DNA from: a virus
Virus record (IMG/VR): IMGVR_UViG_3300020183_000055
Location: 1 to 64,000 of that record
Reading direction: 5' to 3' (one strand)
DNA length: 64,000 nucleotides
A model generated the notes under the pieces. It made no database searches and had not been told where the DNA came from. It saw nothing but the letters and a program-made list of their open reading frames with translations. Made by a program: the position numbers and the translations under genes. This document shows positions 4,582 to 44,736 of the stretch, piece after piece. Each line of letters starts with the position of its first letter. The stretch's first letter is position 1.

Positions 4582-6195
4582 TCAATCTAATTTTGAAAAA
4601 ATTAAATTTCCTATGACCAACTCATCAACAATTCCCGTTTCAAGATGTGCAAAAGCTTCCGATGGTTTACAAACAATTGGCTCTTCGTGTACATTGAATG
4701 ATGTGTTCAAAAGTAAAGGAATTCCGGTCAACAAATAAAATTCATTGATAATCTCGTGAAATTTTGGATTGTTTTCAAATTTAACAATTTGTGCTCTGGC
4801 GGTTTTATCAATCGGATGAACCACCGCTGGGATCCTATCTATCCAATCCGGTTTAGTGTTATAAAGCATAGTCATAAATTCTCCGGTATAATTAGATTTG
4901 GAGCATTCGAAAATTTCTTGTGCTTTTTCGAATAAAACCGATGGAGCAAAAGGCATGAAATCATTCCTTTGAAGTCTATCATTAACCTTCTTGTAAGTCG
5001 AATTCAAACCAGGATGCGCCAAAATACTTCTATTACCTAATGCTCTAGGACCATGTTCATATCCATCTTGAAAAAAACCAATAATCTTTCCCTCGGATAA
5101 GGACTTTGCAACATCCGAAACCACATATTTCTTGGCCCCAAATTTCCGATTATCCCATTGGGAAATTACCTCATCAGACGAAAAAGAACTTCCCCAAAAT
5201 ACATTTTGTATTTTTCTCGGCCTGAAGTCAGAATTTATTTTTCTGTATGCACCAATACAAGATCCCACAGAAATACCTTCGTCTGACATTGGTGGCATGA
5301 CAAAAACCTCATCCACCCAATCCAGATCATTCAGTCTTTTATTTACTTTGATGTTTGCAAAAACACCGCCGGATAAAACCAATTTTCTAGCAAAGGGAAA
5401 TTCAGAATGCAAACTTTCAACAATCTCCACTATTCTATTTTCGAAAGCCAATTGTGCGTTGTATGCCAAATCTTGTTTTTCATTTTTCCAAAATCTACCT
5501 CCAATCAAATTGTAAAAATTTTGATTCAAAGTTTTGACCATCTGGTCCAAAGAAATAAATCTTGTGTGATAACCTTCTCCCCTAATTAGGTCATAAAAAA
5601 GGTCATAATAATTCTGGTTAAATTTGCCATGTGATGACATGCCAACTACTTTACCCTCATCCTTAACCCTTTTGAATTCTAAAAAATCGGTGACTATAGA
5701 ATAAAATAATCCTAAAGAAGCCATAGATCCCTCTTCGCCTACCCCCGAAATTTCAGAAATTAATAATAATTCGCCATTTTTACCCAAATAATATTTTCCT
5801 GATGCTCCAAAACCAGCCCCATCCAAAACTATATTCAAACAATCTTCTTCGAATCCGCTGAAATAATATGCTCCCAAAGCATGACACTCGTGATGGTCAA
5901 ATTTAAAAAATTTGTTTGGATCTTGAAAGGAAATACCTACACAAGACAAAACATATTGTATTTCTTCAAATGAATTATGGGATGATACTAGGTCAATATC
6001 TTCCCATTTTATTCCAATCCTGCCAAACAATTCATTTAAGGACATCTGTGGAAATCTGAACCAATTATTATAAAAGTCAACATACGGTTTAACTCTAGAA
6101 TGTCTTTCCTCCTCCAAGCAGAAAACGACTTTTCCGTTTTCCAGCAAGCTTATTGAACTAGAATGAGCTCCATAAGAAATTCCTAAAATTTTCAC
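4582..6195 (-). CDS. Carbamoyltransferase, NodU/TobZ family
   Basis: A 537-residue enzyme that by family would move a carbamoyl group from carbamoyl phosphate, with ATP, onto a hydroxyl of a sugar or nucleoside. The N-terminal Kae1-like ASKHA domain starts MKILGISYGAHSSSISLLE; the metal-binding HHECHALGAY block and the LDGAGFGASG block follow. The C-terminal part has FGPRALG-type sequence (EHGPRALGNRSILA) and the conserved DFMPFAPSV and LLLNTSFNVHEEPIV blocks, so all family hallmarks are present and the length is normal. It precedes the two tRNAs. Relatives in phages are linked to DNA base hypermodification or to glycan decoration; neighbouring sugar genes fit either, but no base hydroxylase is visible in the window. 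Confidence 0.9.
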   Translation of the reverse strand: MKILGISYGAHSSSISLLENGKVVFCLEEERHSRVKPYVDFYNNWFRFPQMSLNELFGRIGIKWEDIDLVSSHNSFEEIQYVLSCVGISFQDPNKFFKFDHHECHALGAYYFSGFEEDCLNIVLDGAGFGASGKYYLGKNGELLLISEISGVGEEGSMASLGLFYSIVTDFLEFKRVKDEGKVVGMSSHGKFNQNYYDLFYDLIRGEGYHTRFISLDQMVKTLNQNFYNLIGGRFWKNEKQDLAYNAQLAFENRIVEIVESLHSEFPFARKLVLSGGVFANIKVNKRLNDLDWVDEVFVMPPMSDEGISVGSCIGAYRKINSDFRPRKIQNVFWGSSFSSDEVISQWDNRKFGAKKYVVSDVAKSLSEGKIIGFFQDGYEHGPRALGNRSILAHPGLNSTYKKVNDRLQRNDFMPFAPSVLFEKAQEIFECSKSNYTGEFMTMLYNTKPDWIDRIPAVVHPIDKTARAQIVKFENNPKFHEIINEFYLLTGIPLLLNTSFNVHEEPIVCKPSEAFAHLETGIVDELVIGNLIFSKLD

Positions 6196-6742: not shown

Positions 6743-9175
6743 ATGAAAAGATTAAGCAAATTATATTCAAAACGTTTGAGTGAAGCAAACGATGAATTCG
6801 AAAATGAGGATGGTAATGAGAATCGTCCCGAAGGCCAAGGCGGAGTAGGAGGAGGTACGGTTTGGAAAAGTTTTGGTGTTGATTTAACTGAAGAGGCAAG
6901 AGAGGGAAGAATAGATCCGGTGATAGGAAGAGAAAAAGAACTGGACCAAGTTTTACTCATTTTGGCTAGAAAAACAAAAGATAATCCAGTTTTGATTGGA
7001 GAGCCTGGGGTTGGAAAAACTGCCGTAGTAGAAAAACTAGCTTTACTCATGGCTAGTCCTCAATGTCCAAATTTCTTGAAAGGAACATCTTTATTAATGT
7101 TGAATTTAAATCAAGCCATGTCATCTCCTGCCTGGGGTCAGCTTCTGGAAGAGATAGAGTCAGAACCATTAATTTTGTTTATGGACGAAATTCATTCCTT
7201 AAGCGAAAAACTTTATGATCCTTTGAAACCTCTTCTTGCAAGAAGACAACTTCATTTAATTGGTGCTTCTACTTTGGGGGAATATAGAAATTCTATAGAA
7301 AAGGATGGAGCGATGGAAAGAAGATTCCAGAAGGTTATGGTAAATGAACCTTCTTACGAAGAATGTATGGAAATTTTGAGGGGAATTCAAAATAAATACG
7401 AGCAATTTCACAACGTAAAGTACACAGAAGAAGCTCTAGAATCATTTTATAAACTTTCACAAAGATACATCACCGACAGATTTTTGCCGGATAAAGCAAT
7501 CGATTTGATGGATGAAACGGGAGCAAAAATTCGAATGTCTGCCGGGGGAAACCCCAAAGCATTATCGCTGGAAGAAACCCGTCAAGATCTAATTAAACGT
7601 ATAGAATCTGAATCTAAAAAAGGAAACTATGATCTAGCAGCACAATTAGACGATGATAAAAGAGAAATCGAATCACAGCTAACACAAATGTCAAAAAATG
7701 GAGAAATGGGGGAGAGAGTAGATATTACCAGGGATATGGCTGAGGAATTGGTGGCTAAAAAGACAGGAATACCTGTTCAAACTATGAAGAAATCAGATAA
7801 AGCCTCTTTGAAAGAGCTTGCGAGGAATTTGAAGGCAAAAGTAATAGGACAGGACGATGCAGTTGATACTGTAGTGAAAACAGTTAGAAGAAATAGTGTT
7901 GGTTTGAAAGATCCAAACCGACCAGGGGGGGTTTTTTTATTTGTTGGACCCACCGGAACTGGTAAAACATACTTGGTCAAAAAATTAGCAGAGGAAATTT
8001 TTGGTTCCGAAAAAGCGATAATTCGTTTTGATATGGCTGAATTTGCAGCGGAACACGAAGGATCGAAATTAATAGGAGCCCCTCCTGGATTTGTTGGTTA
8101 TGGCCAGGGAGGCCAACTCACCGAAAAGGTAAGAAGACAACCATATTCTTTGATTTTACTTGATGAGATAGAAAAAGCTTCTAAAACAGTTTTGCAATCT
8201 CTTTTGGGCGTATTTGAAGATGGAAGAATGACGGATGGGGAAGGTAGAACTGTAGATTTTAAGAATACGGTTATTATAATGACATCAAACGCCGGTATGA
8301 AGCCTCAAGAAGATCCCAAATCGGCGGAAAGAACCAAAATCGGGGGATTTACTTCATCAAATTCAGAAAAATCTGGGGGAGGAGAAACGAAAGAACAGAT
8401 GAGGGAAAGGATCCTACAGGCATTGAAAACAGAAAAAAAATTCTCTCCAGAATTTTTAAATAGAATTGATGATATTGTGATCTTTCAACCAATATCAGAA
8501 GAAGCAATTAAAGGAATAGCAACAGCAGAATTGCAAAAAGTATCAGAAAGATTAAAAGACACTCAAAAGATTGAACTTGTTTGGGGTAATTCAGTTTATA
8601 AATTACTTGTTAAATATGGATTTGACCCAAGTATGGGAGCAAGACCTATGAAAAGAGCAATTAGAAGATATATCGAAGATCCAATTGCTTCTTATTTGAT
8701 TGAGGATGATGTGGAAGAAGGGACAAAGATCAAAGTTGATTATGACGTTGTTAAAGACGAACTAGTAATCAATGGGAAGCATCTTTCGGAAATTGTTCAG
8801 GAATCAAATACAAGATTCGTACAAAAGAAATTTTCTCTGTTTGAATCTAATTCATTCAGAAGAGTCACTAGTTTCTCGGAATTTAAATCTTCGAGAATTA
8901 ACGAGGCAGAACCAGCAAGACAACCAGAAAAAGAAGAGGAGAAGGAAACCCCTTACAAACCACAAGTTCCTACAAGACCGAAAAGAGATCCAAAGCCCCT
9001 ACCTCCTCCAGACCCTGGTCCGAAGCCAGAGCCAAAGCCTAACCCAAGACCAAGTCATATTCCATTAATTACACCTCCAGGACAGCGACAAGGGCCAGTG
9101 GCAAAAACAAAAAAACCAAACGAAATGGATGTGGTAAAAAGATATCTGAGAGAACTTAGAATGAGAAAAAAATAA
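6743..9175 (+). CDS. ClpC-like AAA+ unfoldase with head-targeting-like N-terminus
   Basis: An 810-residue HSP100 ATPase with two AAA+ modules: D1 Walker A GEPGVGKT (86-93) and Walker B LILFMDE (143-149); D2 Walker A GPTGTGKT (402-409), pore-loop GYGQGG (452-457) and Walker B LILLDE (470-475). A UVR-like middle segment (about 288-316) and an IGGF tripeptide-like loop (533-536), where ClpA and ClpC bind ClpP, point to ClpC rather than ClpB. The usual N-terminal substrate domain is missing; instead the protein starts MKRLSKLYSKRLSEAND. After D2 comes a second motif (TSFSEFKSSRINEAE, 709-723) and a Pro/Lys-rich tail of about 85 residues. It may unfold host proteins for the host ClpP or act in head assembly. 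It leads the plus-strand block. Confidence 0.92.
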   Translation: MKRLSKLYSKRLSEANDEFENEDGNENRPEGQGGVGGGTVWKSFGVDLTEEAREGRIDPVIGREKELDQVLLILARKTKDNPVLIGEPGVGKTAVVEKLALLMASPQCPNFLKGTSLLMLNLNQAMSSPAWGQLLEEIESEPLILFMDEIHSLSEKLYDPLKPLLARRQLHLIGASTLGEYRNSIEKDGAMERRFQKVMVNEPSYEECMEILRGIQNKYEQFHNVKYTEEALESFYKLSQRYITDRFLPDKAIDLMDETGAKIRMSAGGNPKALSLEETRQDLIKRIESESKKGNYDLAAQLDDDKREIESQLTQMSKNGEMGERVDITRDMAEELVAKKTGIPVQTMKKSDKASLKELARNLKAKVIGQDDAVDTVVKTVRRNSVGLKDPNRPGGVFLFVGPTGTGKTYLVKKLAEEIFGSEKAIIRFDMAEFAAEHEGSKLIGAPPGFVGYGQGGQLTEKVRRQPYSLILLDEIEKASKTVLQSLLGVFEDGRMTDGEGRTVDFKNTVIIMTSNAGMKPQEDPKSAERTKIGGFTSSNSEKSGGGETKEQMRERILQALKTEKKFSPEFLNRIDDIVIFQPISEEAIKGIATAELQKVSERLKDTQKIELVWGNSVYKLLVKYGFDPSMGARPMKRAIRRYIEDPIASYLIEDDVEEGTKIKVDYDVVKDELVINGKHLSEIVQESNTRFVQKKFSLFESNSFRRVTSFSEFKSSRINEAEPARQPEKEEEKETPYKPQVPTRPKRDPKPLPPPDPGPKPEPKPNPRPSHIPLITPPGQRQGPVAKTKKPNEMDVVKRYLRELRMRKK

Positions 9176-9182
9176 AAAACAG

Positions 9183-10208
9183 ATGTCAAAAACAAATAGA
9201 ATTTATTCTTTCTTGTCATTTAACGAAGCAGTTAGGGTAAAGGACATGACTTCAATTCCTAAGGGTTACTTGGATTCAATTACTCAGAGGGCCAAGACGA
9301 GATTGAATATAGCCAATCAGCCAGAGGGTGGATACGGAGCAGGACAAGCAGGTTCGGAAATGATGTCTAATTTTTCTAGATCTGCGCAACTTTCTCGGGG
9401 TCACGAAAAGGAATTGGAAGATTTAGCCACACGAGTAATTACCAAGTTATATAAACCCATTTTGGATTTTTATGACATAAAGTTGGACATAAAAATGTCA
9501 ACAGGTCCAGAAATGAGAAGATTTATCGATTCGGGCTTCAGGAAGACAGATGCCAACGAAGGTCCACCTCCAGGGAAAACAAGAGCTGTTATTAGGGCAA
9601 GAGGAGCGGATTTTTCAATGTTGATCCACGAAACTGTGAAGGGAATTTGGAGGGCTTTGTCACAGAATGCTGAGTCTGGGGACAGAGAACTCGATGCAGC
9701 AGTCGAATCACAATTTAGGCTTTCTGATGAACCTGATGAATGGAGATATGGACCTGAAGTAGCAAAAGATCTGAAAGATTTTATTTTTGTAAACCCCAAA
9801 GTTGAAATTTACGACAACCTCGCTGAAGAACTTTGGAGATACATGATCAATCCACAAGTTCTACCCTCAGAAGAGTTTTTAAATTTGATGTCTGGTATTT
9901 TGGATAAAACTCCAACCGCCAGAAAACAAATTGATGAACTAATCGATGTTGTAATTGAAAGAGTAGGAGAAAGAGATTTATGGTTAAAACAAGAATATGA
10001 ATATCAAGCACAGGAAGAAGAGTATAGAAAGAAACAGGAGGCTTATGATGAATATCTTGCTGCCGAAAAAGGGGAAGAAATCCCAAGAAATTTCTCTACA
10101 ATGAATCGAGAACAATTGAAAGAAATTGTAAGAAAAGCTAAAGAAGAAAATGATTTTGCAACTTTGAAACAAGTACTAGATTTCTTGAAAAATAACCCGA
10201 TGACATGA
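9183..10208 (+). CDS. Hypothetical protein with head-targeting-like N-terminus
   Basis: A 341-residue protein of no family I recognise. It begins MSKTNRIYSFLSFNEAVRVK, fitting the shared (F-x-x-F)-(x-N-E-A) motif that could be cut after Glu. The middle is globular (about 60-240) and contains MLIHETVKGIWRAL, a HExxxG string reminiscent of, but not equal to, a zincin HExxH. The C-terminal third is highly charged and helical. It follows the ClpC-like gene by 7 nt and ends in an ATGA overlap with the next gene, so the genes from 6743 to 11100 form an operon. It might be a substrate adaptor or partner of the unfoldase. Confidence 0.8.
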   Translation: MSKTNRIYSFLSFNEAVRVKDMTSIPKGYLDSITQRAKTRLNIANQPEGGYGAGQAGSEMMSNFSRSAQLSRGHEKELEDLATRVITKLYKPILDFYDIKLDIKMSTGPEMRRFIDSGFRKTDANEGPPPGKTRAVIRARGADFSMLIHETVKGIWRALSQNAESGDRELDAAVESQFRLSDEPDEWRYGPEVAKDLKDFIFVNPKVEIYDNLAEELWRYMINPQVLPSEEFLNLMSGILDKTPTARKQIDELIDVVIERVGERDLWLKQEYEYQAQEEEYRKKQEAYDEYLAAEKGEEIPRNFSTMNREQLKEIVRKAKEENDFATLKQVLDFLKNNPMT

Positions 10209-10483
10209 AAAAATTGATGACCGAGATTGAAAAAAGAAAAATGATTAATCTTATCCAACAAGGGGAGGCTAAAAACACCAAAAGAATTTTGGTCATGCCA
10301 GAAGTTAAACAAGAGCTGAATAGGATTCTCGGAGAAGAGAAAGGTAAAGAATTGGCCGATTGCCTACTAAATTTAGCAACAGCGGCTGACAAATTGGATT
10401 GGCTCATGCCAACAGAACAAAGAGGAGCACAAATGCAACATGGATCTGGATTTGCAGGAGCAGTAGATATAGACTGGGAATAA
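10205..10483 (+). CDS. Hypothetical protein (92 aa)
   Basis: A 92-residue, mostly helical protein with a basic N-terminal half and a Gly/Asp-rich C-terminus (GSGFAGAVDIDWE). Its ATG overlaps the stop of the preceding gene by 4 nt, so translation is probably coupled. It lies between a protein of unknown role and a metallopeptidase in the plus-strand operon. No motif is recognised. Confidence 0.75.
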   Translation: MKKLMTEIEKRKMINLIQQGEAKNTKRILVMPEVKQELNRILGEEKGKELADCLLNLATAADKLDWLMPTEQRGAQMQHGSGFAGAVDIDWE

Positions 10484-10494
10484 AATTTTCAAAC

Positions 10495-11100
10495 ATGAAA
10501 CACGTTAGAAATTACCTATCATTCAACAAAATCAACGAATCAAGTCAAGAATTTGAAATTCTTTCTTCATTACCACCTGCTATAGACATTTCGGAATTCA
10601 CAAGAAGAATAGGTTTAAATGAAAATGAGGGGGAAAGATACACAGAACTTTGGACACAGGAAAGACCAAATTTCAAAATCCATTTTTTCCCATTCGAAAC
10701 CCAATTTCCAATATTAGGAGTATTTTTTTACGGAGAAGACGTTTGTATAAATAGCAAAGCTTTAGGACCTCCTCATATAAAAGCATTCATAGCCTTACAC
10801 GAATCAAGACACTGTGATCAATATTCCGATGGAATATTTGAGCCTCAATATTTTCAAACAGTTGTGGATGGAAATGAACAACAATTTTTAACAAATTATA
10901 GAATTCTAGAAGAAGATGCAAACACATTTGCTTTAGAAACTCTCACTGATTATGGTTTCGGAAATTTTGTTAGGTTTGAAGAAAGAAGAATAAGGGGAAA
11001 TGAAAATATGGGTCCGAAAATTTATCAAATGATGTCACAAGATATAGAAAGAACTGGTTCAACCTCTATGGCTGAATTGTTAGCAAGTCAAATATTGTAA
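10495..11100 (+). CDS. Putative zinc metallopeptidase (HExxH)
   Basis: A 201-residue protein with the zincin motif HESRH at residues 102-106 (AFIALHESRHCDQYSDG) and a downstream acidic cluster EEDANTFA at 139-146 that could give the third zinc ligand, as in gluzincins. The N-terminus, MKHVRNYLSFNKINESSQEF, carries the shared head-targeting-like motif with a possible cut at INE/S, so the peptidase might be packaged and delivered with DNA. The frame is open further upstream, but the ATG at 10495 is used because it lies after the previous stop and starts with the shared motif. It is last in the plus-strand operon. No signal peptide is seen. Confidence 0.7.
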   Translation: MKHVRNYLSFNKINESSQEFEILSSLPPAIDISEFTRRIGLNENEGERYTELWTQERPNFKIHFFPFETQFPILGVFFYGEDVCINSKALGPPHIKAFIALHESRHCDQYSDGIFEPQYFQTVVDGNEQQFLTNYRILEEDANTFALETLTDYGFGNFVRFEERRIRGNENMGPKIYQMMSQDIERTGSTSMAELLASQIL

Positions 11101-11150
11101 ACTTATTCCTTTGGACAATTTATAAATCGTATTAATTACCTTTTTACCGT

Positions 11151-12809
11151 TTATAACCCCACCAATCTTGTAACGGAATCTTTCACTTCATCTTCATCCT
11201 TTGCCAAGGCTATAACTGCCTCCACTCTTTGTCTGGTTTCATCGCTTTCCCCTGTACTTTGTTTATTTTGTGAGGTTTCTCCAAATCTCTCTTTTGCTTT
11301 TTGTATTAGGGCAAAAACTTTATCTGTTGATTCCAATATTTCTAGCTTTTCATCTGGTGTTAATTTGGGCAAAATGAATTCTTTAAAAATAGATAAAGAT
11401 GCTAAACTGTGAACTCCGGATTTTAAATATACTTCTTTAAGAGAATTCAATAATTGTCCGTTCTCGGATTCGAGTACTTCAGTAACAACTCCTAAAATGC
11501 CGTTCCATTCTTCTTGTGAAATATTCCCACCCAAATTTTGCCCTGCAACATCCCATAGAGCTCTTCCCAATACATTGTTTTTATTGGCACTTTTTTTACC
11601 AATTGCTTTTATTTTCTCTAAAGTTTTTTTCGTCATGATTTCAATCGGAATTACGTACTCTAAAGTTTTACAAAGATCTTCTGGGTAACCTAAACCTTTA
11701 AAATGGTGGTATATGGATTTTTCTGAATTTTGATGCATAATTCTACGGTCATTTTTATCATGTGAAGCAGTAACTCTTCCATTATATTTGATAGTAGTTC
11801 CAGTGAGATAATAAACATCAGATACAGGCAAATCAAGATTGAAAATGTTGATTTGGAGTCCTGGATCACTTTGGTTTCCTGCATATGAACCCCAATAGCC
11901 TCTATTTATACACCAGTTGGCTATAGCACATAAATCTTTTTGTGCTTGTTCTGTTCTACAAGACAAAACCAAATAGGGGGGTTCGTCATATACAATTCCA
12001 ACCTGGGGTGAAAGAGATCTGATTTTTTCTATAATTTCTTGATAAGATGAATCATTGAGAGCTTTTAGAGTGTTTTCAGCTTTTAGAATGAAACCTTCAA
12101 TATCTACTTCTCGTTCATAGGCTTTGAGTTTTTGTAGGAAAACGTTTGATGGCAATTTATCTTTGTAGGTGCCAATTTTTGCGGCTTCCATATCGAATTT
12201 TCTGAAAGAATTTCCTAAGTCGTATAAAGCCTGTTGTTTTTCTGGGGAGAGCTGTTTGAATTGTTTTTTGTATTTTTCGGTTAATCTGTCTATAAAATAT
12301 TTTCCTTTTTGGTTCAATTCCACAGTTCTAATTGCATCTGCTAGTGATTCAAATCCAGTAATCTGACCTTGTTCTGTCGGTCTAGAAGCATACTGATCTA
12401 CTGACATAGGCAATCTTTCGATCAAAACTTTTCTAGTTTTTAGCCAACCAAGAAGTTGACTGATGCTACTTATTTCTCTTTGATTTTGCTCGTCATCTCC
12501 GAAAAATTTTTCTGAATCGAAATTGTTGATTTCATTCCGAAATCCGATGGGAATTTCCTGGTTGAAATGAAATTTAACCATGGGAAGTGCATAACCTGTC
12601 ATGTCTTTTGTCAGCTCCATAATTTCGAGAAACTGTTTGTTTTCCAGGGCCTTTTTTTTATCCTCTTCTGTTAAATCAGCTGGTGCTATTTCTTTCCCCC
12701 GGGCTAGTCTCTTCACCATGAAAGACTTTGCTGCATCTACATTTTCAACGAGATATCCCTCTGTTTTGTAATTTTTCCAATTCGAAAAGTTATGTATGTA
12801 AGTTAACAT
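11151..12809 (-). CDS. Hypothetical protein, tandem paralogue A
   Basis: A 552-residue protein, a close paralogue of the next gene. It begins MLTYIHNFSNWKNYKTEGYL, a variant of the shared N-terminal motif (possible cut after TE or VE). A central segment (about 290-400) holds ANWCINRGYWGSYAGN, then IFNLDLPVSDVYYLTGTT and a D-K-N-D block. This pattern resembles the (T/N)WC(T/I) domains found in many phage proteins, which have no established function. The remainder is helical and charged. It converges with the zincin gene, with 50 nt between stops and no clear terminator. The role is unknown; its size, duplication and N-terminus suggest packaged internal head proteins. Confidence 0.8.
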   Translation of the reverse strand: MLTYIHNFSNWKNYKTEGYLVENVDAAKSFMVKRLARGKEIAPADLTEEDKKKALENKQFLEIMELTKDMTGYALPMVKFHFNQEIPIGFRNEINNFDSEKFFGDDEQNQREISSISQLLGWLKTRKVLIERLPMSVDQYASRPTEQGQITGFESLADAIRTVELNQKGKYFIDRLTEKYKKQFKQLSPEKQQALYDLGNSFRKFDMEAAKIGTYKDKLPSNVFLQKLKAYEREVDIEGFILKAENTLKALNDSSYQEIIEKIRSLSPQVGIVYDEPPYLVLSCRTEQAQKDLCAIANWCINRGYWGSYAGNQSDPGLQINIFNLDLPVSDVYYLTGTTIKYNGRVTASHDKNDRRIMHQNSEKSIYHHFKGLGYPEDLCKTLEYVIPIEIMTKKTLEKIKAIGKKSANKNNVLGRALWDVAGQNLGGNISQEEWNGILGVVTEVLESENGQLLNSLKEVYLKSGVHSLASLSIFKEFILPKLTPDEKLEILESTDKVFALIQKAKERFGETSQNKQSTGESDETRQRVEAVIALAKDEDEVKDSVTRLVGL

Positions 12810-12830
12810 ATTTATATGTATTATTTTCTA

Positions 12831-14474
12831 TCACCCGATCAATATTTTCAGAGAATCTTTTACTTCTTTTTCATGATCTAACAATGCTAAAGTAGTTTCT
12901 AACTTAATTTGGATTTCATCTTGGGATTGATTAATCCCTGTATTTTTCCATATTCTTTGTAGGCCTTGGAACTGTTTAAAAATTTTATCAGTTGCTACCA
13001 AAACTTGTTGCTTTTCATCTTGTGTTAGTTTTGGAAAAATGAATTGTTCAAAAATAGATAAAGATGCTAAACTATGAACCCCAGCTTCTAAATATATTTT
13101 TTTAAGAGAATTAAATAATTGTCCGTCCTCTGATTGAAGTACTTCGGCAACAACGTCTAAAATTCCGTTCCATTCTTCTTGTAAAATCATCCTATCTAAT
13201 TTTTGCCCTGCAACATCCCATAGAGCTTTTCCCAGAGCATTGTTTTTATTGGCACTTTTTTTACCAATTGCTTTTATTTTCTCTAAAGTTTTTTTCGTCA
13301 TGATTTCAATCGGAATTACGTACTCTAAAGTTTTACAAAGATCTTCTGGGTAACCTAAACCTTTGAAATGGTCGTATATGGATTTTCTTGAATCTGCATG
13401 AAAGATATTATTATTGTTTTTATCAGAAGAATGAGTAACTCTTCCATCGTATGTAATAGTAGTTCCAGTTAAATAATGAACATCAGATACAGGCAAATCA
13501 AGATTGAAAATGTTGATTTGGATCCCCGGATTGTTTACGTTTCCTGCATATGAACCCCATCTACCATTATTTATACACCAGTTGGCTATAGAACATAAAT
13601 CTATCTGTGCTTGTTCTGTTCTACAAGACAAAACCAAATAGGGGGGTTCGTCATATACAATTCCAACCTGGGGTGAAAGAGATCTGATTTTTTCTATGAT
13701 ATCTTGATAAGATGCATTATTCAGAGATTTCAAATTAGCTTGAGCTTTTAGAATAAAACCTTCGATATCTACTACTTTTTCATATGCTTTGATTTTTGAA
13801 ATGAAAGAATTCGATGGAAATTCTTTTTTTTCCTTTCCAATTGCTGCTGCTTCCATATCGAATTTTCTGAAAGAATTTCCTATGTCGTATAAAGCCTGTT
13901 GTTTTTCTGGGGAGAGCTGTTTGAATTGTTTTTTGTATTTTTCGGTTAATCTGTCTATAAAATATTTTCCTTTTTGGTTCAATTCCACAGTTCTAATTGC
14001 ATCTGCTAGTGATTCAAATCCATTGATTTGACCTGGTTCTGTCGGTCGAGAAGCATACTGATCTACTGACATAGGCAATCTCTCGATCAAAACTTTTCTC
14101 GTTTTCAGCCAACCAAGAAGTTGGCTAATGTTACTTATTTCTCTTCGGTTTTGCTCGTCATCTCCGAAGAATTTTTCTGGATCGAAATTGTTAATTTCAT
14201 TCCGAAATCCAATAGGAATTTCTTGGTCGAAATGAAATTTAACCATGGGAAGTGCATAACCTGTCATGTCTTTTACTAAATCCATAATTTCGAGAAACTG
14301 TTTGTTTTCTAAGGCCTTTTTTTTATCCTCAGGTGACAAATCAGATGGTGCTATTTCTTTTTCCCTGGCTAGTTTCTTCACCATGAAAGACTTTGCTGCA
14401 TCTACATTTTCAACAAGATATCCTTCGGATTTGTAATTTTTCCAATTTGAAAAGTTATGTATGTAAGTTAACAT
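12831..14474 (-). CDS. Hypothetical protein, tandem paralogue B
   Basis: A 547-residue paralogue of the gene at 11151, nearly identical over long stretches (for example KQLSPEKQQALYDIGNSFRK and PPYLVLSCRTEQAQ) but divergent in the C-terminal 50 residues and around 225-260. The WC segment reads ANWCINNGRWGSYAGN. Strong similarity at DNA level shows a recent tandem duplication. It has a good GATATATA element 14 nt upstream; the gap to paralogue A is only 21 nt, so both may be read from one promoter. The function is unknown. Confidence 0.82.
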   Translation of the reverse strand: MLTYIHNFSNWKNYKSEGYLVENVDAAKSFMVKKLAREKEIAPSDLSPEDKKKALENKQFLEIMDLVKDMTGYALPMVKFHFDQEIPIGFRNEINNFDPEKFFGDDEQNRREISNISQLLGWLKTRKVLIERLPMSVDQYASRPTEPGQINGFESLADAIRTVELNQKGKYFIDRLTEKYKKQFKQLSPEKQQALYDIGNSFRKFDMEAAAIGKEKKEFPSNSFISKIKAYEKVVDIEGFILKAQANLKSLNNASYQDIIEKIRSLSPQVGIVYDEPPYLVLSCRTEQAQIDLCSIANWCINNGRWGSYAGNVNNPGIQINIFNLDLPVSDVHYLTGTTITYDGRVTHSSDKNNNNIFHADSRKSIYDHFKGLGYPEDLCKTLEYVIPIEIMTKKTLEKIKAIGKKSANKNNALGKALWDVAGQKLDRMILQEEWNGILDVVAEVLQSEDGQLFNSLKKIYLEAGVHSLASLSIFEQFIFPKLTQDEKQQVLVATDKIFKQFQGLQRIWKNTGINQSQDEIQIKLETTLALLDHEKEVKDSLKILIG

Positions 14475-14488
14475 TTTTTCAATTTTTT

Positions 14489-14496
14489 TATATATC
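14489..14496 (-). promoter_or_regulatory. Putative phage late promoter element (GATATATA)
   Basis: On the minus strand CTAAGATATATAAAAAA lies 14 nt before the ATG of paralogue B, a near match to the element before the ClpC-like gene. Confidence 0.5.
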
Positions 14497-14515
14497 TTAG
14501 AAATAATTCAAAATT

Positions 14516-15088
14516 TTATTTTTTGATTTTCCAACACTCAGATTTCTGTATCATCTCTAAAAGAGGTAAAGGAATAATAGGGATATCTTCTTTTGATGTA
14601 AACTCTTTTATACCTCCGTTCCACCATTCATATTTTTTGGATTTAAAGAAAGATGGAGAGGTAAAAACTCTATCTTTAGTCAGAACATCGAACCCTATCC
14701 CATCATATTGCAAAAAATGTTTGGTTTCTAATTTGGTTCCTGTATTTCTAAAGAAAATATGGAGTCCTCCATTCAGTGAATTTTCAATCAGAAATGTGTC
14801 TGGATTTAATCCCACTCTTTCCAAAAAGAAAAAGAAATTTTGGACAGAACCGGATGGGAGATGTTCTATATCCAAACAAATTAAATCAGAATTTTGAAGA
14901 AAAATTCCAAAGAAATTAACGTCGCTTGGAATATTTTCTTTAGAAAGTAACATTTCTGAATTCAACTTCACGAATTTTTTGGAAAGTTTCTTACTTCCCA
15001 ATTCGGCTTCTACCCTCATTACGAAAGAATCAATCCCAAAAGATTTCCATTTGAGAGCTTCATCGTACATCAATTCTACCTTTGACAT
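14516..15088 (-). CDS. Primase-polymerase (AEP)-like protein
   Basis: A 190-residue protein with an archaeo-eukaryotic primase pattern like the N-terminal domain of bifunctional Prim-Pol proteins: an acidic pair in LICLDIEHL (D73, E75), a conserved His in NSLNGGLHIFF (H110), and GFDVLTKDRVFTSPS (D134 and the SPS end). These match the hhhDh(D/E), sxH and hD motifs. There is no helicase or zinc domain. It might prime or fill in DNA during repair, besides the gp61-like primase elsewhere in the window. It overlaps the radical SAM gene upstream by one base (TGATG), so the two are translationally coupled. The second acid is Glu rather than Asp, so activity is not certain. Confidence 0.6.
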   Translation of the reverse strand: MSKVELMYDEALKWKSFGIDSFVMRVEAELGSKKLSKKFVKLNSEMLLSKENIPSDVNFFGIFLQNSDLICLDIEHLPSGSVQNFFFFLERVGLNPDTFLIENSLNGGLHIFFRNTGTKLETKHFLQYDGIGFDVLTKDRVFTSPSFFKSKKYEWWNGGIKEFTSKEDIPIIPLPLLEMIQKSECWKIKK

Positions 15089-15933
15089 CAGAAAATTTCT
15101 TCAACAACACAATTTCCAGGAAGATCTTCTCTTCTCTTACCTAAACCAATTAAAATTGAATCTCCCCAATAAACTGGGACATCCCCAATTTTATTCATGA
15201 CACTCGAAAAAAAGTTTTCCATTGCTTCCAAATTTATGTTCTTATTTCGGGTGGGGCCGTTCAGTAAACCGACCCTCATAAAATCTATATGTTCATGAGA
15301 TTTTGAAATCATATTCAAAGTTGAATTGAAATCGATAACAGGCTCGAAACTCGCAAAGGTTTTAAATCCTAATTTGTTTATTTTTATCAATGCCTGTATT
15401 CTTTCTTCATTGGAATCTGTTCCAATCTCAACCTGATCTTGACCAGTTAGAGAAAACCCGAACGCGAACAGATCCATCTTTGGCTGCTGTCCCCACACAG
15501 TTCCATGATTTTTGAATTCCTGAATAAATTTATCATCAACCCACTTTGTGCACTTCGTCAAAACCTTGAAAGGAATATCTAAGTCGTGACAAATTTTCAT
15601 AGCCCCGTATGTTAATTCTTTGGTTTCAGGTAACATGGCATCTGTTGTCAAAGAAAAAAAAAGTCTACCTCTAGAGCGGAGAGATTCTAAATTTTCTCTG
15701 ACCTCTCCTTCAAAAATTTTTAAAGCATGATCTTCGTTTTCGAAATGTCTAATCAAATTTACCTTAGTGTCCCAATTATGTTTCAAAATGTAAGAGCAGC
15801 AACAATAGGTACATCCATTAGAACAACCGATATAAAAATTACATGTCCAAGGACTTCTTCGACCAGCCTTTTCTCTATAAACCAAACATTTGAATTTTCT
15901 TTTGGTTGAAACAAGTTTTTCTTTTATTTCCAT
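15088..15933 (-). CDS. Radical SAM protein (spore photoproduct lyase-like)
   Basis: A 281-residue radical SAM enzyme with the cluster motif at GCSNGCTYCCC (C37, C41, C44; two more Cys follow). LTTDAMLPETKELT and FKVLTKCTKW match the conserved 'TDP...E' and 'TK' blocks of the SPL/Rv2578c-type subgroup. Members cleave SAM to a 5'-deoxyadenosyl radical; the best-known one repairs the spore thymine photoproduct, but most have unknown substrates. The last 25 residues, ending RREDLPGNCVVEEIF, are unlike the core. It is translationally coupled to the Prim-Pol-like gene, so a joint role in lesion repair or bypass is attractive but unproven. Confidence 0.82.
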   Translation of the reverse strand: MEIKEKLVSTKRKFKCLVYREKAGRRSPWTCNFYIGCSNGCTYCCCSYILKHNWDTKVNLIRHFENEDHALKIFEGEVRENLESLRSRGRLFFSLTTDAMLPETKELTYGAMKICHDLDIPFKVLTKCTKWVDDKFIQEFKNHGTVWGQQPKMDLFAFGFSLTGQDQVEIGTDSNEERIQALIKINKLGFKTFASFEPVIDFNSTLNMISKSHEHIDFMRVGLLNGPTRNKNINLEAMENFFSSVMNKIGDVPVYWGDSILIGLGKRREDLPGNCVVEEIF

Positions 15934-15961
15934 ATTCTGTTTTCTATTCTATAATTTCTGA

Positions 15962-16306
15962 TTATTTATCCAAAAGAAAGCCTACGACAGACAAATCATC
16001 TTCCCCAGTTCTATCCAGAACTTGTTGTTTTATTTCTGGAAAGTCGTTCAAATAATATAAGAGAGTAGGATCTTGTTTTATCTTATCATCTAATATTCCT
16101 TCTAAAGTTGTACCCTCTTTTTGAGCTTGTTTCTTTAATCCGTTTAAAAACCCTTCAGGGAATTTAGGGAAATTTGTGTAAAGATCTATTGCAACTCTTC
16201 CAGATTTTTTCATTTCTTCTAAAATTTTGGAAAAAGCTTCTTCTGGGATTTTATGGAATTCGTTTTCATTCAAGAAGGTTGTAAATTTTTTTAAATGTGT
16301 ATTCAT
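15962..16306 (-). CDS. Small hypothetical protein, head-targeting-like N-terminus
   Basis: A 114-residue acidic and helical protein starting MNTHLKKFTTFLNENEFHKI, one of the cleanest examples of the shared motif: a basic start, F-x-x-F-L and a possible cut at LNE/N. The rest has no known domain. A GATATATA element lies 15 nt upstream of the ATG, so late expression as an internal head protein fits. It is downstream of the LRR genes and upstream of the radical SAM gene on the same strand. Confidence 0.75.
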   Translation of the reverse strand: MNTHLKKFTTFLNENEFHKIPEEAFSKILEEMKKSGRVAIDLYTNFPKFPEGFLNGLKKQAQKEGTTLEGILDDKIKQDPTLLYYLNDFPEIKQQVLDRTGEDDLSVVGFLLDK

Positions 16307-16337: not shown

Positions 16338-17351
16338 TCACATGATCCCGGATCTCACCAGTTCCAACAAGTTCTCAAAATCGTCCCTCAGATCTGAAGG
16401 AATTCGAATTGAATTTCTAAACTCATCTGGCAAATCGTCCCAAAATTCTGAAAGTTCAATAATTGTTGATTCGGGATTTTGGGAAATTTTGGAATTCCAG
16501 AAGTTTGAATCCAAATAGGGAAGTGTTATAATTAGTTTCTTTGCCTCTTCGGATCCATTTTCTAGAACTTCCAGCCATCCATCCATGTTCCATTCGCCCG
16601 GATCTAATTGGAATTCATCACACTGAAATTCACCACCAATTTCTTGTGGTGCTCCTGCCAGGGATTGGAGTTTGTTGCCGTAACAAAAAAAATCCCCACC
16701 AACTTTCAGTGGTGCTCCTTCTAGCGATTGGAGTTGGTTTTCATAACAACGAAAATACCCATCAACCTTCTGTGGTGCTCCTGCCAGGGATTGGAGTCCG
16801 TTGTCGGAACAATTAAAATCTCCAAAAACTTTCTGCGGGGCTCCTGCCAGGGATTGGAGTTGGTTGTAGGAACAATCAAAATCCCCATCAATTTTCCGTG
16901 GTGCTCCTTCCAGGGATTGGAGTTGGTTGAAGGAACAATTAAAATCCCCACCAACTTCCTGTGGTGCTCCTGCCAGGGATTGGAGTCCGTTGTCGGAACA
17001 ATTAAAATCTCCAAAAACTTTCTGCGGGGCTCCTGCCAGGGATTGGAGTCCGTTGTCGGAACATACAAAATTCCCATCAACTTTCTGTGGTGCTCCTTCA
17101 AGAGATTCGAGTTGAGTGTACAAACAATCAAAATCCTCAGTTACATTTCCAAATTTGACTCCAAAAAAACTTTTTGCTTCTTTGTTAATGTAGGTTCTAA
17201 AAAAGAATTTCCCCTGAATGTCAACAAGACCTGTTGTTGGATTCACGCTCCAGGTTCCTTGTGTGTAACGATTCAGAAAATCCTTCTGTTCTGAAGTCAA
17301 ACCAGAAGTATTTTTAGATTCGTAAACCCGAAAGGGAACGAGATGTCTCAT
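16338..17351 (-). CDS. Leucine-rich-repeat protein, tandem copy 1
   Basis: A 337-residue protein with nine or so 21-residue leucine-rich repeats of the type LQSLAGAPQKVGGDFNCSDN between about residues 80 and 260, flanked by unique N- and C-terminal regions. Such repeats form a curved binding surface and are common in bacterial surface and phage proteins. The N-terminus is MRHLVPFRVYESKNTSG, with a possible cut at VYE/S. The frame is open further upstream (to 17477), but the ATG at 17351 gives the same start as the paralogue. The repeats are nearly identical at DNA level, including a 91-bp exact direct repeat. It could be a cargo protein that binds a host target. Confidence 0.85.
   Translation of the reverse strand: MRHLVPFRVYESKNTSGLTSEQKDFLNRYTQGTWSVNPTTGLVDIQGKFFFRTYINKEAKSFFGVKFGNVTEDFDCLYTQLESLEGAPQKVDGNFVCSDNGLQSLAGAPQKVFGDFNCSDNGLQSLAGAPQEVGGDFNCSFNQLQSLEGAPRKIDGDFDCSYNQLQSLAGAPQKVFGDFNCSDNGLQSLAGAPQKVDGYFRCYENQLQSLEGAPLKVGGDFFCYGNKLQSLAGAPQEIGGEFQCDEFQLDPGEWNMDGWLEVLENGSEEAKKLIITLPYLDSNFWNSKISQNPESTIIELSEFWDDLPDEFRNSIRIPSDLRDDFENLLELVRSGIM
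16770..16860. repeat. 91-bp direct repeat inside the LRR gene, copy 1
   Basis: This 91-bp stretch is identical to 16959-17049. The offset of 189 bp equals three 63-bp (21-residue) repeat units, so it probably arose by recent unequal recombination inside the LRR gene. Confidence 0.85.
16959..17049. repeat. 91-bp direct repeat inside the LRR gene, copy 2
   Basis: Second copy of the 91-bp repeat (see 16770-16860); the match ends at a T/C difference just after each copy. Confidence 0.85.
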
Positions 17352-17355
17352 GCTG

Positions 17356-17363
17356 TATATATG
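17356..17363 (-). promoter_or_regulatory. ATATATA element directly before the start codon
   Basis: On the minus strand CATATATA lies only 4 nt before the ATG of LRR copy 1. If it is a -10 element, transcription would begin at or very near the start codon. The paralogue start at 18400 has GATACATATAG in the same place (18404-18414). Confidence 0.35.
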
Positions 17364-17371
17364 CTCACATT

Positions 17372-18400
17372 TCACATGATTCCTTTCCTCACCAGATCCA
17401 ACAAGTTCTCGAAATCGTCCTTTAAATTCGAAGGAATACGAATTGAATTTCTGACATTGTCTAGCATGTCGTCCCAAAATTCTGAAAGTTCAAGAATGGC
17501 TGATTCAGGATTTTCAGAAATTTTGGAATTCCAATAAGTGGAATTGAAAAATGGAAGTGTTAGAATTAGTTCCTTTGCCTTTTGGCTATGTTTTTCAGAT
17601 CCTAAGATTTTACCACATGCTTCCATGCTCCATTCACCCGGAACTAACTCGAATTTATCACAATAAAAACCACCATTTATCTGTTTTGGTACTCCTATCA
17701 GGGATTGGAGTTTGATGCCGTTTTTTTTGCCGGTACACCAAAAATCCCCATAAACTTTCTCTGGTGCTCCCTCCAGGGATTGGAGTTGGTTTCCGCCACA
17801 TTTAAAATTCCCATAAACTTCCCGTGGTGCTCCTTCCAGTGATTGGAGTTCGTTGTAGGAACAAATAAAATCCCCACCAACTTCCTGTGGTTTTCCTTTA
17901 AGGGATTGGATTTTGTTCTCGGAAAAATCGAAATCCCTACCAACTTCCCGTGGTGCTCCTGCCAGGGATTTGAGATCGTTGGAGGAACAATTGAAACTCC
18001 CACCAACTTCCCGTGGTGATCCTTTCAGGGTTTGAAGTTGATTATACCTACAATCAAAATCCCCAACAACTTCCTGTGGTGCTCCTTCCAGAGATTTGAG
18101 ATTGTTGCCTTTACAACAAAAAAACCCACCAACTTCCTGTGGTGCTCCTTCCAGGGATTGGAGTTGGTTTCCGGCACAATAAAAATTCCCAGTTACATTT
18201 CCAAATTTAATTCCTAAAAAATTTTTCAATCCATCATTATCTGGAAAGAAATCACCCTGGATGTCAACAAGACCTGTTGTTGGATTCACGCTCCAGTTTC
18301 CTCCTTTTCTTATGTAACGATTCAGGAAAGCCTCCTGTTCTGGGGTCAAACTAGGAGGGATTCTGGATTCATAAACCCGAAAAGAAATAAGGTGTTTCAT
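17372..18400 (-). CDS. Leucine-rich-repeat protein, tandem copy 2
   Basis: A 342-residue paralogue of the preceding LRR protein, 20 nt upstream of it. It has the same start (MKHLISFRVYESRIPP), the same N-terminal block (NPTTGLVDIQG), about nine 21-residue LRR units and the same C-terminal block with 'SxYWNSKISENPES' and 'GIM' end. Repeats here are more diverged from each other than in copy 1, so copy 1 has probably been homogenised more recently. Both end with a short helical domain (EFWDD...NSIRIPS). Role as for copy 1. Confidence 0.85.
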   Translation of the reverse strand: MKHLISFRVYESRIPPSLTPEQEAFLNRYIRKGGNWSVNPTTGLVDIQGDFFPDNDGLKNFLGIKFGNVTGNFYCAGNQLQSLEGAPQEVGGFFCCKGNNLKSLEGAPQEVVGDFDCRYNQLQTLKGSPREVGGSFNCSSNDLKSLAGAPREVGRDFDFSENKIQSLKGKPQEVGGDFICSYNELQSLEGAPREVYGNFKCGGNQLQSLEGAPEKVYGDFWCTGKKNGIKLQSLIGVPKQINGGFYCDKFELVPGEWSMEACGKILGSEKHSQKAKELILTLPFFNSTYWNSKISENPESAILELSEFWDDMLDNVRNSIRIPSNLKDDFENLLDLVRKGIM

Positions 18401-23054: not shown

Positions 23055-24851
23055 TTAAGATCCACAGGCGATACAATCATCTGGGTTGTCCAAACTACAA
23101 CTTAAATCTTCTAAAGTTTGGTTGGCCAGAACTTGTAATTCTTCATTTGGGGTTTCCAAAGTCTTTTTGAAAACTTTGGGCTCTTCTTTTTTTGGTATTG
23201 TCTGATATTTAGAAACGTCTATCCCAAGTCCAGTCATGGCGTCTACAGCGGACTTAGTGCGAAGATAATACATGCCAGTTTTCAAACCCAATTTCCAAGA
23301 ATGGAAATGGGCGGCAGTTAATTTGGCAGCGTTAACACCTTCAATGAAAAGGTTGAGAGATTGGGATTGACAAATGAATCTACCTCTTTCTGCAGACATC
23401 TCAATAAGATCTTTCTGTTTGATTTCCCAAACCGTTTTGTAAACCTCCTTGATGTCATCGGGGATGTTTGGAATGTTTTGAACAGATCCTTTGTGGATGA
23501 TAATCAAATTTTTAACATCTTCATTCCAAAGACCCAAATTGATTAGATCTTTCACAAGATATTTGTTGATGATGATAAATTCTCCCGACAGGGTTCTTCT
23601 TGTATAAATATTGGAGGTAAAAGGTTCAAATGCTTCATTGTTTCCCATAATTTGAGCTGTGCTCGCGGTTGGCATGGGTGCCAGAAGCAAAGAATTTCTG
23701 GATCCGTGTTTCATCACAGATTTTCTCAATTTATCCCAGTCCCATCTACCAGAAAGTTCGGAATCTGTAACGTCCCAGAGGTTAAATTGGAATTTGCCTT
23801 GGCAAAGAGGAGATCCAGGAAAACTCTCATAATGACCTTCTTTCTTAGCCAAATCCACAGAAGCAGACATAGAAGCGAAGTAAATGGTTTCAAAAATTTC
23901 AGAGTTGATTTTTCTTGCCTCTGGAGATGTAAATGGCAATCCCATAATGGCAAAAAGATCAGCTAAACCCTGAATTCCAATGCCAATTGGGCGGTGTCTG
24001 AAATTCGAATTTTTAGTTTCTGGGGTTGGATAAAAATTAACATCAATTACCTTGTTCAAATTTAATGTTGTTTGGTAGGCAACATTGTAAAGCAATTCGT
24101 GATCTACCTCGCATTTTTTTCTGGCAATCTTGGAGGTTCTTGCGTCTGTAGATTTCAGAAACTTATTCACCGCGATCGAAGCCAAGTTACAAACTGCAGT
24201 TTCGTCTTTACTGGCATATTCTATAATTTCTGTGCACAAATTAGAAGATTTGATTGTACCTAAATTTTGTTGGTTGGATTTCCTGTTGGCCGCATCCTTA
24301 TACAAAATATATGGGGTTCCGGTTTCAATTTGTGAATCCAAAATCTTGCCCCACAAATCCCGGGCCTTAATTGTTTTTCTGGCCTTCCCAGCCTCTTCTG
24401 CTTCCAAATAAGCGGCATTGAATTCCTTTCCAAATTTTTCATGTAAATTGGGAACTTCGGATGGAGAAAACAAAGACCAGGTAGAATCCTCGTGAACCCT
24501 CTCCATAAATAAATCGGGAATCCACAAAGCCAAAAACAAATCTCTGGCTCTTCTTTCTTCTTTACCTGTATTTTTTCTTAAGTCCAGAAAATCTTCAACA
24601 TCAGCATGCCAAGGTTCTAGATAAATGGCGAAGCTTCCCTTTCTCTTTCCACCCCCATTGTGAACAATTGATACATTCGTAGAGTAATTAGGAATCTCAG
24701 AAATTCGCAGATCGTAAACTTTTCCTTCCCTACCTGATATTTTTTCTACTTTTGTTACCTTATTGAATTTCAATTTAGAGACAGAAAGTACAGATGATTC
24801 CTCATGGAGCTCTCCATCCTGTAGAGGGTGATGTAAAAAGATGTTTGCCAT
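23055..24851 (-). CDS. nrdA: Ribonucleotide reductase large subunit, C-terminal part with split intein C-fragment
   Basis: This 598-residue protein begins with about 65 residues of the C-terminal part of an intein (VYDLRISEIPNYSTNVS and IVHN, blocks F and G) and continues directly into the RNR large subunit at GGGKRKGSFAIYLEPWH, then the catalytic core with NLCTEII (active-site Cys), the radical-transfer region, and the C-terminal redox pair CIACGS. The N-terminal part is encoded by the preceding gene (24884-26071), 32 nt upstream. Together they make a complete class I reductase of the eukaryote-like subtype. The residue after the intein Asn is Gly rather than Cys, Ser or Thr, so normal protein splicing is in doubt. 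Confidence 0.93.
   Translation of the reverse strand: MANIFLHHPLQDGELHEESSVLSVSKLKFNKVTKVEKISGREGKVYDLRISEIPNYSTNVSIVHNGGGKRKGSFAIYLEPWHADVEDFLDLRKNTGKEERRARDLFLALWIPDLFMERVHEDSTWSLFSPSEVPNLHEKFGKEFNAAYLEAEEAGKARKTIKARDLWGKILDSQIETGTPYILYKDAANRKSNQQNLGTIKSSNLCTEIIEYASKDETAVCNLASIAVNKFLKSTDARTSKIARKKCEVDHELLYNVAYQTTLNLNKVIDVNFYPTPETKNSNFRHRPIGIGIQGLADLFAIMGLPFTSPEARKINSEIFETIYFASMSASVDLAKKEGHYESFPGSPLCQGKFQFNLWDVTDSELSGRWDWDKLRKSVMKHGSRNSLLLAPMPTASTAQIMGNNEAFEPFTSNIYTRRTLSGEFIIINKYLVKDLINLGLWNEDVKNLIIIHKGSVQNIPNIPDDIKEVYKTVWEIKQKDLIEMSAERGRFICQSQSLNLFIEGVNAAKLTAAHFHSWKLGLKTGMYYLRTKSAVDAMTGLGIDVSKYQTIPKKEEPKVFKKTLETPNEELQVLANQTLEDLSCSLDNPDDCIACGS
24657..24851 (-). other. Split intein C-fragment (about 65 aa)
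   Basis: Residues 1-65 of the C-terminal nrdA gene: block F (KVYDLRISEIPNYSTN) and block G ending in His-Asn, then the extein GGGKRK. Codons at the junction are CAC AAT GGG. This is longer than the 35-45 residues usual for natural split-intein C-fragments. Confidence 0.85.
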
Positions 24852-37684: not shown

Positions 37685-37692
37685 TATATATC
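37685..37692 (-). promoter_or_regulatory. Putative phage late promoter element (GATATATA)
   Basis: On the minus strand AATAGATATATACACAAAAA: the TAG is the stop codon of the ligase fusion gene and the element starts inside it, 17 nt before the GTG of the next gene. Confidence 0.5.
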
Positions 37693-43671: not shown

Positions 43672-44736
43672 TTAAACCTCCATGAAGTATGTTAGATCTA
43701 AAGTTTCTTTTGTGAAATAATCTTCAAATCTTCTGATCTTCAATTTCTTCAAACGAAGATAATTCACCAGATCGTTTAAATCCCACTTTTTGTCCAGGGG
43801 TAGGTTGTGATCTTCTAAAAATTTTCTCCAGTTGAAAACCAAATTTCCTTTGGTGAGCATTTCCAAAGATTTTGTTCTTCCTGCTTTATCCCAATCGTAC
43901 CAAAATCTGATGTCTTCAAATTCAAATGGAAATTTGTTTTCTATCGAACAAAGACCAACCGAATTTTCCCAGAACCAAGAATCCATTGGGCCCTCAAAAA
44001 TTGTGATCGTACGATCGAATGAAATTCGACCTATTCCAAAAACATGGGAGATAGGATCTATCTTACCACATTCCATTAAAAATTCAGGGTTGGTCTCGCC
44101 CATCATTTTCTCCCAGATCCCGCTCAACTTGTAGGTGTAATATTTAGAAGCCCTGGTTGATTTGGACATGGATCTGACCTGAAGACCTAAAATTTCTTCA
44201 TCTTTGGTCAAATTGAAAAGGAAAAGTCTTTCCTCCGCCGGATCCCATGCGAACCTGTGGTCAAGAACTTGATTTCTTCTTTTTAAATATCCGGCGATTG
44301 AAGAACCCTCAACATTTTCCAAATTCAAACGTTGTATTAAAACATTTCTGGGGATAACACATTTTTTGAAGTCGATTTCAAACAACATTGAAATATCAAC
44401 ATCCCCATAATGTGTTTTTCTTTTTTCTTTACTTTCCTTGACGATCTTAAGGATTTCTCTTCTATCTTCAGGATTCAGCTCAGACAGAACTTCAAAATCT
44501 GTAAAGAAAGCATAGCCATCTTTAAAAATACCACATCCCCCATTATAACACTTATAACACAAAGTGGTCAGATAAAAGTTTCCTCTCTTTTTCCTTCCCG
44601 TTGAACTGTCTCCACAGTAAGGACAAGAAAAATTGATTCTGTTGCCGGCCAGGTAAATTTTTTGTCTGGCAGAATCTCCAGGAAAGGATTTTCTGAGAAC
44701 AGTTTCGACTAGATTTTCTATTTTGGCGAGTTCCAT
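43672..44736 (-). CDS. DNA primase, gp61/DnaG-like
   Basis: A 354-residue primase. The N-terminal zinc-binding domain shows NFSCPYCGDSSTG and, further on, TLCYKCYNGGCGIF, giving the Cys ligands. The Toprim-like core has TITIFEGPMDSWFW (acidic E and D in EGPMD) and IRFWYDWDKAGRTKSLEML (DWDKAG, the second acidic pair). It would lay down RNA primers on the lagging strand with a gp41-like helicase, not seen here. It is directly downstream of the gp32-like SSB (58 nt) and upstream of a small basic protein, so it is part of the replication cluster. Confidence 0.88.
   Translation of the reverse strand: MELAKIENLVETVLRKSFPGDSARQKIYLAGNRINFSCPYCGDSSTGRKKRGNFYLTTLCYKCYNGGCGIFKDGYAFFTDFEVLSELNPEDRREILKIVKESKEKRKTHYGDVDISMLFEIDFKKCVIPRNVLIQRLNLENVEGSSIAGYLKRRNQVLDHRFAWDPAEERLFLFNLTKDEEILGLQVRSMSKSTRASKYYTYKLSGIWEKMMGETNPEFLMECGKIDPISHVFGIGRISFDRTITIFEGPMDSWFWENSVGLCSIENKFPFEFEDIRFWYDWDKAGRTKSLEMLTKGNLVFNWRKFLEDHNLPLDKKWDLNDLVNYLRLKKLKIRRFEDYFTKETLDLTYFMEV

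Follow-up and report, generated by a model that had tools for sequence, protein, structure and literature searches.

To our knowledge, spore photoproduct lyase (SPL) is almost the sole enzyme known to repair DNA directly by radical chemistry. Synthesis next to a processed site has its own precedent in mycobacteria, where the stand-alone Prim-Pol known as Prim-PolC works with lesion-processing enzymes (PMC5663958) and closes short gaps during excision repair (PMC5663958, PMC7442782). Two further Prim-Pols, pRN1 ORF904 and the polymerase of phage NrS-1, carry a helix bundle that is needed for priming and dispensable for primer extension, according to PMC8718748 and PMC7102993. No account of a radical SAM enzyme paired with a Prim-Pol was found in the literature searched, although an earlier mention elsewhere is possible. 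PMC3765255 deals with SplB-like enzymes accompanying SOS genes, which is another context, and PMC10853773, PMC6807378, and PMC4158269 likewise treat contexts other than this pair. Here we describe such a pair in T4-like phages. The partnership of the two genes is well supported for two phages; their chemistry is what we infer.

Genomic Setting of the Two Genes

The window, that is, the whole stretch of 64,000 nucleotides that was analyzed, belongs to a T4-like phage whose IMG/VR virus record is 74.5 kb long; the host group of the carrier phages is probably Bacteroidota. A sequence-only reading of this DNA had claimed two genes sharing a single base, and both ORFs are indeed present at that place on the minus strand (table 1). 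The gene of the radical SAM protein (hereafter rSAM) lies upstream, its stop codon TGA occupying positions 15090-15088, and the start codon ATG of the Prim-Pol gene occupies 15088-15086. This overlap suggests translational coupling of the two genes. A scan for promoters and terminators gave the same counts as in shuffled sequences.

Table 1. Position of the Paired Genes, Their Overlap, and Two Further Genes of the Window.
Feature	Position	Strand	Remarks
Radical SAM gene (rSAM)	15088..15933	minus	281 aa; SPL-like; cluster site C37/C41/C44
Minimal Prim-Pol gene (AEP superfamily)	14516..15088	minus	190 aa; catalytic core, without PriCT or zinc finger
TGATG stop/start overlap of rSAM and Prim-Pol	15086..15090	minus	base 15088 common to both genes
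114-aa protein upstream of the pair	15962..16306	minus	T4 capsid-targeting-like N-terminus; neighbor, outside the pair
T4 gp61-type DNA primase	43672..44736	minus	phrog_47, E 6.7e-25; outside the pair

PHROGs matches in the window include a gp43-type polymerase, a gp41-type helicase, a gp61-type primase, a gp32-type single-strand binding protein (SSB), and a ribonucleotide reductase, the gp names being those that we presume to fit the PHROG functions. The T4-type primase mentioned in the sequence-only reading is thus present, and is taken as the replicative primase of the window phage. With gp41-, gp61-, gp43-, and gp32-like genes all in the window, the view that the pair is dispensable for replication also holds.

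The same pair, in the same order, occurs in a diverged phage on a 348-kb contig (L003), where the Prim-Pol start codon lies three bases past the upstream stop codon. The rSAM proteins of the two phages are 65% identical, the Prim-Pols approximately 45%, and the helicases 73-74%. Between these phages, pN and pS are 0.22 and 0.86 for rSAM and 0.38 and 0.74 for Prim-Pol, with synonymous sites saturated or nearly so in each case, and by this comparison purifying selection seems to act on both genes. In the L003 phage, the genes of the region that the two phages share lie scattered from 68 to 156 kb, over approximately 87 kb (100 of the 348 kb compared). There, adjacency has been kept by rSAM and Prim-Pol and by two close pairs (window 9183/10205 and 18413/18676), but not by the other testable neighbors. 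A partial homolog of the 114-aa protein lies approximately 10 kb from the pair in the L003 phage.

Affinities of the Radical SAM Protein

A radical SAM center had been read from the sequence, and the family data bear it out: Pfam PF04055 matches the window protein at 29.8 bits, just above the cut-off of 29.5, and the L003 ortholog at 34.8 bits, while the CX3CX2C motif is invariant in all 35 aligned family rows. We take the protein to be of the COG1533 type. Relatives were found at 55 viral loci and at 60 loci in bacterial or archaeal genomes, 48 of these 60 belonging to Bacteroidota according to record titles.

When a 33-row profile of this family was compared with PDB, SPL chains alone fell below E 0.1 (best E 0.002; five distinct SPL sequences), in an alignment that is weak (21 bits) and covers profile positions 19-186 only. 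A profile of this depth was needed, given that two-row and five-row profiles returned chance matches only, as did single-protein phmmer searches of PDB with rSAM and with Prim-Pol. The AlphaFold model of rSAM (pLDDT 80.6, pTM 0.83) has low confidence around the cluster loop. Compared by VIA-align, it retrieved six SPL entries first (Z 14.9-15.3 over 228-230 residues) and PFL-activating enzyme as the next family (Z 14.0), a margin of 1.3 Z where the tie limit is 1; Foldseek placed the peptide-modifying enzyme SuiB first and SPL third. The proposed kinship with SPL is therefore retained, SPL being alone in PDB in matching the family profile and heading the VIA-align list, and we consider rSAM to be SPL-like by a modest margin, on profile and model evidence. 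Viperin-like chemistry was set aside, since viperin appears in the fold lists below SPL and without sequence support.

The best VIA-align match, SPL of Geobacillus thermodenitrificans (PDB 4fhc; Z 15.3, rmsd 4.3, 230 residues, 14% identity), resembles rSAM in its partial-barrel radical SAM fold and CX3CXYC motif. However, its chain has 368 residues against 281, and the C-terminal part is unaligned by sequence. The Rv2578c / PA0069 family (NCBIfam NF038135 and NF033668) gives weak profile matches to rSAM of 20.8 and 14.6 bits, far lower than the cut-offs of 430 and 360 bits. A phage member of the same family, gp34 of Parabacteroides phage PDS1, recorded as a "radical SAM enzyme" (MN929097), is 35% identical over 91% of the query, but lacks an adjoining small Prim-Pol and is flanked by a single-strand binding protein on one side and an ASC-1-homology-domain gene on the other.

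Departures from SPL concern both overall score and individual residues. The NCBIfam model of the SPL family, TIGR03886, scores 11.7 bits with rSAM, its cut-off being 437.55. The H-atom donor of Geobacillus SPL is C140 (C141 in Bs), as given in PMC5368176. On the weak alignment this position corresponds to L95 of rSAM, and holds F in 33 of the 35 family rows. In the Clostridium enzyme the alternative donor is C74, which we take from a mutant name to be S76 in Gt; this position falls at A23 when counted on the weak alignment. From the SPL tyrosine pair (Y96/Y98 in Gt, Y97/Y99 in Bs), Y96 is kept as Y43, and the Y98 position is C45 in the window and L003 proteins, with Y in 32 of the 35 rows. Literal photoproduct lyase chemistry is not supported, given the Leu and Cys at the C140 and Y98 positions; with the donor cysteine and one tyrosine replaced, rSAM is, as aligned here, not SPL proper. 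The SPL-like TDP block from the sequence-only reading is there as a block but not as spelled, since rSAM and its L003 ortholog read TTDA, Pro occupying that position in 32 of the 35 rows. Among the 35 aligned family members, six positions (E25R, Y26R, Y45C, F95L, P99A, K220R) show a change that is confined, or nearly confined, to the window protein and its L003 ortholog, the exceptions being one T at 220, one F at 45, and one V at 99. These two proteins are also the only rows with a small Prim-Pol partner.

A Minimal Prim-Pol

The window Prim-Pol scores 19.2 bits with PF09250, below the cut-off of 22.8, and its L003 ortholog 28.4 bits, above it. With a model of pLDDT 76.7, the best six Foldseek matches are to NrS-1 Prim-Pol (E 2e-4), and the first VIA-align match is pRN1 ORF904 (Z 9.4, rmsd 4.0, 158 residues). 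The AEP motifs ascribed to the second gene are in place, in keeping with the Prim-Pol fold of the model: motif I (DxD/E) as D73/E75 and motif II (GGxH) as G108/H110 in both window and L003 proteins, with D73, G108, H110, P145, S146, and Y153 invariant when compared with five other phage or plasmid Prim-Pols. The Asp of motif III, D134 in both proteins, stands two residues downstream of the Asp column of the other Prim-Pols. A match to DUF6906 (19.8 bits, below cut-off) was judged to be due to chance. Plasmid searches gave no rSAM relative at 1e-5 and, for Prim-Pol, weak lactobacillar replication matches only.

The label "primase" fares less well. A PriCT_1 domain follows the catalytic core in all four comparison Prim-Pols scanned, and a Pfam scan found none in the window and L003 proteins, which both end before it. 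Additionally, the whole protein has only two cysteines in 190 aa and hence no zinc finger. Because the PriCT/helix bundle is absent, Prim-Pol is predicted to extend primers and to be unable alone to start chains, and a gap-filling polymerase is more likely than a primase, judging from its domain content. Thus, although it has the Prim-Pol fold and catalytic motifs of pRN1 ORF904 and the NrS-1 polymerase, it differs from them in lacking helix bundle, helicase, and zinc finger, and in having a separate primase and a separate polymerase beside it in the window phage. Mycobacterial Prim-PolC is alike in being a stand-alone, non-replicative Prim-Pol, with a low fold match (Z 5.7, rmsd 4.4, 177 residues), but it is partnered by ligase C and base-excision enzymes, in contrast to the radical SAM enzyme found here.

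Distribution of the Pair

A helicase scan yielded 68 loci, and 67 records were searched for both genes, the longer record of the window phage itself (L192/G001) being excluded. Both genes were found in one of these, the L003 phage, and one gene alone in none. Many of the 67 records are fragments, with ten of at least 200 kb; both genes are absent from nine of the ten, and five of these nine large non-carriers contain both tested flank genes, several of the five being near copies. In a helicase tree of 25 sequences (the window and 24 records of at least 100 kb) the carriers occupy separate, well-supported branches, each beside non-carriers, so that two changes are needed. Two absences are not independent, because G037 and G038 have the window phage's helicase at 100% and are read as its fragments. 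The 138-kb non-carrier L167, whose helicase is identical to that of the L003 phage, may on this ground be an incomplete assembly of that phage. G039, a sister phage in which most replication-region proteins are 80-97% identical, has the flanks at 175.8 kb and 192.9 kb; no match was found there to any tested window gene from 6743 to 16306.

The branching pattern, together with the presence of both genes or neither in the 67 records, leads us to regard the pair as an accessory cassette. The evidence for this is good, although it comes from two carriers only and so from two events at most. Apparently the two genes come and go as a unit. A real partnership, as supposed from the window, is supported by the one-base overlap, by the L003 pair, by joint presence or absence in the 67 records, by the two separate places in the helicase tree, and by the retained adjacency.

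Scans of the viral collection with the Prim-Pols or rSAMs of the paired clade returned the same two phages only. More broadly, a small Prim-Pol lies near rSAM at 2 distinct loci out of 119 (116 with a recognizable rSAM ORF). PF09250 was searched against 41 records, a part of the rSAM-bearing set, and matched two of them, that of the L003 phage and another encoding a large replicative Prim-Pol; this search missed the window Prim-Pol itself, and divergent small Prim-Pols could escape likewise. Large replicative Prim-Pols near rSAM in L016, L095, and L068 (from the record of L044) were put aside as ordinary replication genes, distinct from the pairing described here. By reading of the sequences, and from the PDS1 annotation, the neighbors of the wider rSAM family include ASCH, C5 methyltransferase, ParB/methylase, SSB, and MazG genes. 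Evidently rSAM works elsewhere without a small Prim-Pol, usually among phage DNA-metabolism genes. That the pair might be found apart in relatives, a prospect raised at the outset, is thus true of the wider family but untrue of the paired subclade, which gave no singleton in the 67 records.

Possible Roles of the Pair

The pair suggests two-enzyme handling of damaged or altered DNA bases. In the reading we prefer, to which we give a probability of roughly 0.36, the two genes are an accessory cassette in T4-like phages, and their products would act jointly on one DNA substrate, with lesion processing followed by short synthesis. rSAM would make a 5'-deoxyadenosyl radical and apply it to an altered nucleobase in DNA, through chemistry akin to that of SPL but not the same. 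Prim-Pol would then synthesize a short stretch through the processed site or beside it, comparable with mycobacterial Prim-PolC in excision repair. DNA is suggested as the rSAM substrate because of the SPL kinship and the DNA-metabolism surroundings, and the sequence of lesion processing and synthesis because of the pairing and the Prim-PolC precedent. Because of its place in a variable region, the cassette would answer a conditional threat (damage or host defense) and not routine replication. Repair and fill, already proposed from the window, is accordingly worded here as what we infer. A more specific version, which we hold tentatively and with some doubt, has an rSAM with altered active-site surroundings acting on a DNA nucleobase and passing the site to its own priming-incompetent Prim-Pol, the whole being a mobile repair or anti-defense cassette.

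The same features could be read as DNA base hypermodification, in which rSAM would install or mature a modified base, in DNA or as a nucleotide, with Prim-Pol adapted to it and anti-restriction as the outcome. The variable accessory region is of the kind often holding anti-host genes, the wider rSAM family sits among phage DNA-metabolism genes, and the six residues peculiar to the paired rSAMs look as if the substrate had changed; in cyanophage S-2L, with its 2-aminoadenine genome, a PrimPol serves as polymerase (PMC8065100). Nevertheless, the window phage keeps a gp43-like polymerase, so that a non-replicative Prim-Pol of 190 aa would probably not be the enzyme copying a fully modified genome, and no modified-nucleotide synthesis gene was recognized among the window ORFs scanned, which leaves this explanation unlikely in our judgment. 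A little harder to credit is counter-defense, with the pair as a conditional anti-defense cassette that repairs or rewrites host-immune damage (e.g., nicks, modified or depleted nucleotides). It would suit a variable region that also encodes proteins looking capsid-targeted, and a pair that two types of phage possess in a lineage with close relatives lacking it. However, no defense target is known, and no PADLOC model matched the four proteins at E <= 1, PADLOC covering defense and not counter-defense genes.

Hitchhiking needs no common pathway at all: two unrelated cargo genes would have been captured together once and would travel as one segment. There are only two carriers, adjacent genes recombine together, and rSAM relatives elsewhere are without Prim-Pol. 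Yet both genes have stayed intact, adjacent, and ordered through approximately 35% and 55% protein divergence while the other shared genes of the region dispersed, and they overlap by one base in the window; we consider such chance company improbable. A role for Prim-Pol as a second primase restarting stalled forks, with rSAM a separate stress gene, we regard as very unlikely. Repriming enzymes that confer damage tolerance, such as human PrimPol, do belong to the AEP superfamily, but here Prim-Pol lacks the PriCT/helix bundle and zinc finger, and the window phage already has a gp61-type primase. If lesion processing followed by short synthesis is the true role, radical chemistry on DNA and follow-up synthesis would be testable together in a two-component phage system, and part of a widespread phage radical SAM family would acquire a function.

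Neighboring Genes

Many window and L003 proteins begin with T4 capsid-targeting-like sequences (e.g., MKHLISFRVYES, MNTHLKKFTTFLNE). In the window these include the products of 9183-10208, 10495-11100, 15962-16306, 16338-17351, 17372-18400, 29197-29523, 30538-31923, and 40966-41448. A loose pattern picks out 23 of the 128 ORFs in the window and 11 of the 29 in L003, some of them by chance. Judging from these starts, both phages may have many packaged and injected proteins. For the pair itself, delivery in the capsid was discounted, neither protein having a clear targeting N-terminus, and the loose-pattern flag on the Prim-Pol start being attributed to chance. Window 16338-17477 and 17372-18400 combine a targeting-like start with leucine-rich-like repeats (type GGDFxCSxNQLxSLEGAP) and are multi-copy in related phages.

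Window 11151-12809 and 12831-14474 are adjacent paralogs of 552 and 547 aa; the latter has no Pfam or PHROG match, and there is one 29% identical relative in the compared part of the L003 phage. A carbamoyltransferase (4582-6195; PF16861/PF02543) near the variable region was not found in the relatives compared. The large subunit of ribonucleotide reductase is split into two ORFs (23055-24851 and 24884-26071), and a two-piece match is also seen in G037, G039, and G040. The DNA polymerase match at 27763-29166 has 467 aa only and is possibly one piece of a split polymerase. Finally, 37692-39605 encodes a 637-aa protein that joins an RNA-ligase-like to a cytidylyltransferase-like domain.
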